A stretch of 64,000 nucleotides of DNA from Loxodes magnus (Eukaryota > Ciliophora > Karyorelictea > Loxodida > Loxodidae), in NCBI GenBank assembly GCA_946699065.1, contig CAMPDV010000113.1, positions 558,001 through 622,000 on the forward strand. The letters are read 5' to 3'. This document shows positions 17,935 through 19,287 of the stretch, one piece after another (the stretch's first letter is position 1; each line of letters opens with the position of its first letter). A program made the translations under genes and the position numbers. A model generated the notes under the pieces. The model searched no databases. It was not told where the DNA came from and saw nothing but the letters and a program-made list of their open reading frames with translations.

Positions 17935-19287
17935 ATGAGAGAAATTATACATGCTTAGATAGGATAATGTGGTAATTAAATAGGAACTAAATTTTGGGAA
18001 TTTATTTCAGATGAACATGGAATTGATCAAACTGGAAAATATTGTGGAAATTAAGATTTATAATTAGATAGAATAGAAGCATATTTTAGTGAAGCCTAAG
18101 ATTATAAATTTTTGCCTAGAGCTATATTGGTGGATTTAGAACCTGGAATCTTGGATTCTGTTAAGGCTACTTCTTATGGATAATTATTTAGACCTGAGAA
18201 TTTTATTTTTGGACAATCGGGAGCTGGTAATAATTGAGCGAAGGGACATTATACAGAAGGTGCTGAATTGATGGATATAGTTTTAGATGCTGTAAGAAAA
18301 GAAAGTGAAAATTGCGATAGTTTGTAAGGATTTTAAATAGTTCATTCTCTAGGAGGAGGAACTGGATCAGGAATGGGAACACTTCTAATTTCTAAATTAA
18401 AGGAAGAATTTACTGATAAAATTATTTAAACTTTTTCAGTTTTTCCTTCACCTAAATCTTCAGATTAAGTAATTGGTCCTTATAATGCAACTCTTAGTAT
18501 TAATTAGTTAATAGAAAATGTAGAAGAGGTGATGGCTATAGATAATGAAGCTTTATATGATATATGTTTCAGAACTTTAAAACTATCCACTCCTACATAT
18601 GGAGATTTGAATCATTTAGTAGTAAATGTAATGAGTGGAGTTACTGCTAGCTTAAGATTCCCAAGTTAACTAAATAGTGATTTGAGAAAACTTGCTTTTA
18701 ACTTAGTTCCTTTTCCAAGACTTCATTTCTCTATGATTAGCTTTGCTCCTTTATCATCACGTGGTAACTGATCCCAAAGTGTTCAAACAGTTTCAGAATT
18801 AATTTAATTGATGCTTGAAAATAGAAATATGATGTGTGCAGCTGATTCCAGAAATGGTCGTATTTTAACAGCAGCAGCAAATTTTAGAGGTAAAATATCA
18901 GCACTAGAAGTAGAAGAACAAATGTAAATAATTTAAAATAGAAGTTCATCATAGTTTGTTGAATGAATTCCTAATAACATAAAGTCATTCATTTGTGATA
19001 TTCCTAATAAAGGATTAAAAATATCAGCTACTTTTGTAGCAAATAACACAGCCATTTAAGAGGTTTTCAAACGAATTGAATGATAGTTTACTTCTATGTT
19101 TAGAAGAAAAGCATATTTACACTGATTTACAGGAGAAGGAATGGACGAGATGGAGTTTATGGAGGCATAATCTAATATGAATGATTTGATTTAAGAATAT
19201 TAATTTTATTAAGAATCAACTGCTGATATTGAGGCATCTGAAGAAGATGGAGATAGTGAAGAAGAAAGTGAAGATGAAGAATTATGA
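17935..19287 (+). CDS. Beta-tubulin (divergent)
   Basis: Predicted 450 aa, ATG 17935 to TGA 19285-19287, unbroken. It starts with the MREI motif and HAQIGQCGNQIG, has the GTP-binding GGGTGSGMG loop near residues 140-148, [13 protein letters not shown] helix sequence (TPTYGDLNH) and an acidic C-terminal tail rich in Glu. Beta-tubulin pairs with alpha-tubulin in microtubules. Trp101 (GAGNNWAKG), Trp344 (VEWIPNN) and Trp397 ([14 protein letters not shown]) are all encoded by TGA, two more TGAs are internal (279, 383), and over twenty Gln positions use TAA or TAG. It is divergent: the segment after SSRG (about 277-290) and several core positions differ from typical beta-tubulins, so it may be a specialised paralogue. 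No intron. Confidence 0.96.

Follow-up and report, generated by a model that had tools for sequence, protein, structure and literature searches.

Genetic codes that lack a dedicated stop codon, in which position within the message can decide how a codon is read, are known, and one of them is already on record for the ciliate Loxodes magnus. The code of Condylostoma magnum is NCBI table 28. The macronuclear assembly of Loxodes magnus comprises 706 Mbp, and karyorelicts including Loxodes are assigned to table 27, with UGA as the only stop codon and also as a Trp codon when far from the poly-A tail (PMC11441545, available text). Public RNA-seq reads for the species are deposited as PRJEB55324, and the mean 3' UTR length given in print is 53 bp. 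An excerpt of a further paper assigns UAR to Gln in karyorelicts and lets UGA be either Trp or stop (PMC10553269), while two others, in passing and in the portions available, describe all three codons as having dual meanings or as stops in this group (PMC11687900; PMC12153298). Competition between eRF1 and tRNA, tipped by nearness to poly(A), is proposed for Condylostoma magnum and Parduczia in the accessible part of PMC4967479.

The DNA analyzed here, referred to as the window, is a 64-kb stretch of contig C113 (positions 558001-622000), almost certainly nuclear DNA of Loxodes magnus, and the genome searched with it comprises 705,730,643 bp in 7,843 contigs. The ambiguous code of the window genes is already known (table 27; PMC11441545, as available). 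Compared with table 27 as set out for Loxodes magnus in that text, the features found here are the same with respect to UAA and UAG as Gln, internal UGA as Trp, UGA as a stop at gene ends, AT-rich sequence after the stop, and a lower frequency of UAA, not of UAG, before the stop. They differ in that UGA is the only stop in that description (PMC11441545), whereas 12 of 72 anchored Ras/Rab genes here end at UAA. Condylostoma magnum is likewise described as reading codons as sense or stop according to their place in the mRNA, with a cue from poly(A) and PABP proposed, but there all three codons serve as stops (PMC4967479, in part), and none of the 72 anchored ends found here is UAG. Blastocrithidia, as described in the text available, also has sense meanings for the three codons, and its UAA has both roles and is seldom found just before stops, but in that organism UAR is Glu and UAA the stop, whereas here UAR is Gln and UGA the main stop (PMC12153298).

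Taken as a whole, the data very probably reflect an ambiguous nuclear code in which UGA would stop translation at gene ends, eRF1 would compete with tRNA, UAA would be a minor stop and UAG would be plain Gln. A three-way division of roles, with UGA as Trp and main stop, UAA as Gln and a true second stop, and UAG as Gln only, appears likely. The minor use of UAA as a stop is better regarded as independent backing for an earlier suggestion, with an initial rough rate for a single gene family of this genome, than as a discovery. A literature search found no paper whose available text paired the terms 'stop-UAA' and 'karyorelict'. The abstract of Seah and colleagues from 2022 reportedly states that a small minority of karyorelict transcripts may use UAA as a stop.

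The beta-tubulin gene of the window (coding sequence 17935-19284, + strand, 450 sense codons; stop TGA at 19285-19287) was recognized with phmmer and Pfam as a divergent paralog within a large tubulin family. When TAA and TAG are translated as Gln and TGA as Trp, positions 17935-19287 form a single unbroken frame of 451 codons including the final TGA, with 19 TAA, 4 TAG, 5 CAA, 5 internal TGA and 1 TGG. Such a frame is not a matter of chance, since TAA greatly outnumbers every other Gln codon in it. Residues 1-441 match PDB beta-tubulins (phmmer, best E=5.5e-220), and Pfam identifies Tubulin (PF00091, E=2e-62) and Tubulin_C (PF03953, E=2.9e-33). The initial annotation, made from the sequence alone, had placed TAA and TAG at Gln positions and TGA at Trp101, Trp344 and Trp397, and translation and alignment bear this out. 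The TGA codons at 18235-18237 (Trp101), 18964-18966 (Trp344) and 19123-19125 (Trp397), all on the + strand, lie opposite Trp in both PDB beta-tubulins displayed in the phmmer alignment, and the comparison of 44 tubulins below marks the same three sites as conserved Trp. The other two internal TGA codons, TGA279 (18769-18771, +) and TGA383 (19081-19083, +), are taken as sense from their position in the frame; they lie opposite other residues in those PDB proteins, and Trp is found at site 279 in 1 and at site 383 in 2 of the 44 genome tubulins, the window gene counted. The proposed end of the gene at TGA 19285 also stands, in that codon log-odds are +0.59 per codon before it and -0.14 after it (under a model trained on tubulins including this gene) and tubulin ends in this genome are mostly TGA; the nearest in-frame TGA and TAA upstream of it are 54 and 25 codons away, respectively. 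Measured against the three closest paralogs whose dS is unsaturated (L044, L045, and L051), the gene has a dN/dS of 0.21-0.22 and therefore looks selected, unlike a plain pseudogene. Its closest copy lies about 104 kb away on the same contig in inverted orientation (C113:470675-472022, - strand) and is 91% identical. This copy may be broken, because it is 5 nt shorter and absent among the 150 Pfam matches listed.

Sense meanings were compared across 44 full-length tubulins, among them the window gene, drawn from 48 loci plus the window. With gaps counted as other, Trp21 is encoded by TGG in 22 genes and TGA in 20 (other, 2), Trp344 by TGA in 21 and TGG in 17 (other, 6), and Trp397 by TGA in 17 and TGG in 16 (other, 11); at Trp101, 18 genes carry TGA, 10 carry TGG and the remaining 16 have Phe, Tyr or Leu. 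The interchange of TGG and TGA at these four conserved sites indicates that TGA is Trp. Conserved Gln sites interchange TAA, TAG, CAA, and CAG in the same manner, as at position 11 (TAA 24, TAG 12, CAA 6, CAG 2; n=44). Pairwise dN/dS among the six most conserved beta-tubulins (L039-L043 and L047) is 0.002-0.007, which together with the value for the window gene indicates that these are genes under selection. To judge from aligned sequences, conservation shows UAA and UAG to be Gln, and UGA to be Trp, within genes. At C441:147101-175116 nine beta-tubulin copies are arranged head to tail, repeating every 3,342 bp exactly. Tubulin genes on C64 and actin genes on C266 and C711 are likewise present many times over, with identical or almost identical scores, and 96 actin matches were located.

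Conserved genes point to TGA as the main stop. All 14 of the most conserved alpha- and beta-tubulins examined end at TGA, as do both eRF1 paralogs compared (L160 and L161). Tubulin ends were named by hand in 38 genes, of which a script found 32, and these hand-anchored ends comprise 28 TGA and 4 TAA; among the six that the script did not match (L058, L071, L073, L074, L076, and L077), three (L073, L076 and L077) seem to end at TAA. The four TAA-ended genes are the near-identical pair L050 and L067, L072, and L075, the last without a clear drop in coding signal. L050 and L067 carry TAA where their sister L068 has TGA, and in L072 TAA occurs where the tubulin-like tail stops. On sequence evidence, stops appear to swap between TGA and TAA among paralogs.

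The C-terminal Cys motif of Ras and Rab proteins must sit at the end of the protein for lipidation. This family was chosen for the stop test because the motif marks the protein end, and the case for UAA as a stop is based on it and, weakly, on the tubulins. From at least 150 Ras-family matches in the genome, 100 ends were taken, of which 72 were anchored and 28 left out. The anchored ends comprise 60 TGA, 12 TAA and no TAG. An automatic CC/CxC rule, applied to 52 of them, gave 39 TGA, 11 TAA, 1 TAG and 1 with none of these within five codons of the motif; the latter two (L169 and L158) were reassigned by hand to TGA, since each clearly ends at a CxC-TGA further along. The 20 ends with other C-terminal motifs, hand-picked after the sequences had been viewed, gave 19 TGA and 1 TAA. 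TAA was counted as a stop solely where no TGA lay within five codons of the motif, and L079 and L080 (TAG-TGA) and L145 (TAA-TGA) were scored as TGA ends. In these three Rab genes, which read CCK-TAG-TGA (L079, L080) and CC-TAA-TGA (L145), the first of the paired codons could be an older stop or an extra Gln. The 12 TAA ends, which are partly dependent in that L172/L174/L177 and L138/L143 look like sisters by eye, belong to divergent family members and sit 0-3 codons past the Cys motif. The next in-frame TGA is 16-94 codons further on in 11 of these genes and beyond the sequence examined in one.

Anchored gene ends such as these show UGA acting as a predicted terminator of translation. The dual role assigned to TGA at the outset, as both Trp and stop, is upheld by the 44 tubulins, the 60 of 72 Ras/Rab ends and the two eRF1 paralogs, and a karyorelict-type ambiguous code has the support of the 44 tubulins, the whole set of 72 Ras/Rab ends and the same two paralogs. 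The broader statement that the genes all end at TGA fits the window tubulin and the F-box gene described below, but does not seem to extend genome-wide, given the 12 of 72 Ras/Rab genes that end at TAA.

Coding signal changes across the Ras/Rab ends with either stop. GC content falls from 0.307 to 0.195 across TAA ends and from 0.313 to 0.211 across TGA ends, and mean codon log-odds fall from +0.12 to -0.17 and from +0.18 to -0.21, respectively. The 428 internal tubulin TAAs show no drop (+0.29 before, +0.30 after). In these log-odds TAA, TAG, and TGA were set neutral, with the coding model derived from the tubulins and the UTR model from the stretches after the 60 TGA ends; because the models were trained on them, the TGA and tubulin values are in-sample, while those for the TAA ends are out-of-sample. 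Taken individually, 7 of the 12 TAA ends show a clear drop. In L144 the log-odds are still +0.03 after the TAA, and values before the TAA are near zero in L172 (0.04), L174 (0.02), L177 (-0.07), and L180 (0.03). Removal of a short intron could place a TGA in frame in 1 of the 12 TAA-ended genes, as compared with 6 of the 60 that end at TGA.

The choice among Gln codons also shifts toward the ends of Ras/Rab genes. TAA makes up 30 of 130 Gln codons in the last 20 codons as compared with 98 of 210 at positions -21 to -60 (Fisher p=1.1e-5), while the share of TAG rises from 39 of 210 to 49 of 130 over the same intervals (p=1.2e-4). Bootstrapping at the level of genes, in which the far set was all codons beyond 20 in the sequence examined (226 Gln codons), gives differences of -0.235 for TAA (95% CI -0.324 to -0.143) and +0.193 for TAG (95% CI 0.100 to 0.284). 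In the 12 TAA-ended genes, TAA accounts for 0 of the 16 Gln codons among the last 20 codons, compared with 20 of 41 farther from the end; the zero is in part a matter of definition, the stop having been set at the first TAA behind the motif. With the synonymous Gln codons as a control, UAA is avoided near Ras/Rab ends, to go by codon counts, and UAG is not. The legend of a figure in PMC11441545, from the part of that paper available, describes UGA and UAA counts as depleted before the stop and UAG counts as not depleted. The 1440 codons that make up the last 20 of the 72 Ras/Rab genes contain 0 TGA but merely 4 TGG, and the lack of TGA is uninformative on avoidance because Trp is rare there. 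Tubulins, which here are few and related, show no such shortage of TAA, which supplies 9 of 21 Gln codons within their final 20 codons and 36 of 78 between -21 and -60, and eRF1 carries one sense TAA 14 codons upstream of its own stop. Taken together, the 12 of 72 TAA ends, the drop in signal across them and the avoidance of TAA near ends suggest that UAA would be a second, minor and context-dependent stop, with UAG as Gln only.

Three matches to the eRF1 family were found, of which L160 and L161 (436 aa) were used, the match with the best E-value (L159) lying outside the comparison. The loops of eRF1 around GTASNIKS and YLCDNKF take part in reading stop codons. In the N-domain of the Loxodes proteins the corresponding sequences are GRAQNIKS, against GTASNIKS in the solved eRF1, and FLCENTF, against YLCDNKF. 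Most likely, eRF1 would compete at UGA and UAA with the tRNA that reads each codon. At a distance from the poly(A) tail the tRNA would win, as in the published Condylostoma model, and near it eRF1 would win, by way of a 3' UTR that is short and AU-rich and of proteins bound to the poly(A). Some power over UAA seems to have been retained by eRF1, such that a minority of genes would end there, and UAA is a less frequent choice for Gln over the final 20 codons, a stretch in which it would carry a risk. UAG, with neither gene ends nor avoidance near ends, appears to be plain Gln. As a separate observation, L160 and L161 (2764-2775) have a second in-frame TGA three codons past the stop TGA, in the manner of a backup stop; no enrichment of TGA at that place was detected among the 60 TGA-ended Ras/Rab genes.

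The evidence can also be set against other readings of the code. Under table 27 taken strictly, UGA would be the sole stop and the TAA ends would be false, arising from truncated copies, unseen introns or run-on to a later TGA. The naming of UGA as the only stop in the available text of PMC11441545 agrees with this, as do the TGA ends of the most conserved genes examined, the 28 of 100 Ras/Rab ends that are unanchored (some of them, to judge by eye, owing to introns), and the weak or unclear change in signal at 5 of the 12 TAA ends. It is nevertheless unlikely, since the 12 TAA ends lie so close behind the C-terminal Cys motif (0-3 codons), mean coding signal and GC drop there as they do at TGA ends, the next in-frame TGA is 16-94 codons away in 11 of the genes, and UAA is depleted near ends both in the Ras/Rab data and in the published figure (PMC11441545, in part).

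A code like that of Condylostoma, in which any of the three codons can stop, would account for gene ends at both TAA and TGA and for the TAG immediately 5' of TGA in the sister Rab genes L079 and L080, and would suit the passing wording on karyorelicts in the portions available of PMC12153298 and PMC11687900. That TAG alone ends none of the 72 anchored Ras/Rab genes, and that its share of Gln rises rather than falls near the end, make this very improbable. Least credible of all, and close to negligible, is the proposal that the window tubulin has decayed and carries premature stops, in a genome using a Tetrahymena-kind code, with UGA as a stop only. The family is indeed divergent and expanded, TGA279 and TGA383 fall off Trp sites, and the inverted copy elsewhere on the contig, at 91% identity, lacks 5 nt of its length; against this, TGA and TGG interchange at conserved Trp sites across 44 tubulins, and the window gene combines an intact frame of 451 codons with a dN/dS of 0.21-0.22. 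If the preferred reading, with UAA as a minor stop and UAG as none, is true, three grades of stop-codon loss would coexist within one genome, a natural setting in which to test how the decision to stop is divided among eRF1, tRNA and distance to poly(A). Gene predictors that recognize UGA only, together with table 27, would then mis-call such ends and add at least 16 codons of apparent 3' UTR to 12 genes.

Other genes in the window follow the same usage. An F-box-like gene of 469 aa (2810-4219, - strand; stop TGA at 2812-2810) gives a Pfam F-box-like match at E=0.0083, under the curated cut-off; among 20 window stretches submitted to Pfam, tubulin alone exceeded that cut-off. The codon pattern and TGA end attributed to this gene by the initial annotation are confirmed, with 22 TAA, 7 TAG, and 5 TGA in its interior. 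A small gene of 133 aa (16689-17090, + strand), annotated at the same time as having two TM segments, contains 5 TAA, 3 TAG, and 2 internal TGA and ends at TGA as proposed, with two candidates for the stop (17088 or 17094). Its hydrophobic stretches, visible by eye, fall under a simple TM threshold, and no Pfam match was found for it.

ARAGORN identifies 8 tRNAs in the 64-kb window, none of them Trp or Gln, and Rfam adds a ninth without an anticodon call. Four are tRNA-Asn(GTT) (24736-24809, 33375-33448, 46845-46918, and 57523-57596) and two are tRNA-Ser(CGA) (30751-30832 and 41388-41469); these scattered genes are perhaps parts of repeats. A Loxodes tRNA-Trp(CCA) with a 4-bp anticodon stem is described in the available portion of PMC13092985, citing Swart et al. 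2024. In a genome-wide search for tRNAs (RF00005) 63 of 42,786 candidates were scored, and all 30 tRNA loci cut out carry tRNA-Lys, some with adjoining tRNA-Ala; the number of candidates suggests tRNA-derived repeats. Regular tRNA-Lys arrays (L018-L033) occur at C103:669738-672972, C78:681122-688206, and C158:171420-182004, with periods of 527 bp and about 1,753 bp, and tRNA-Ala adjoins in the C78 loci read. Ab initio gene calls made on the window alone took repeats and tRNA genes as coding and were used as a guide to places only. Coding-like repeats occur within the window at 13372-14199 (+) and 61892-62299 (-) and at 10155-10430 and 23864-24157, and a further coding-like stretch at 37060-37950 (-) has a weak match to a zinc knuckle (E=0.075); all of these are probably pieces of mobile elements.
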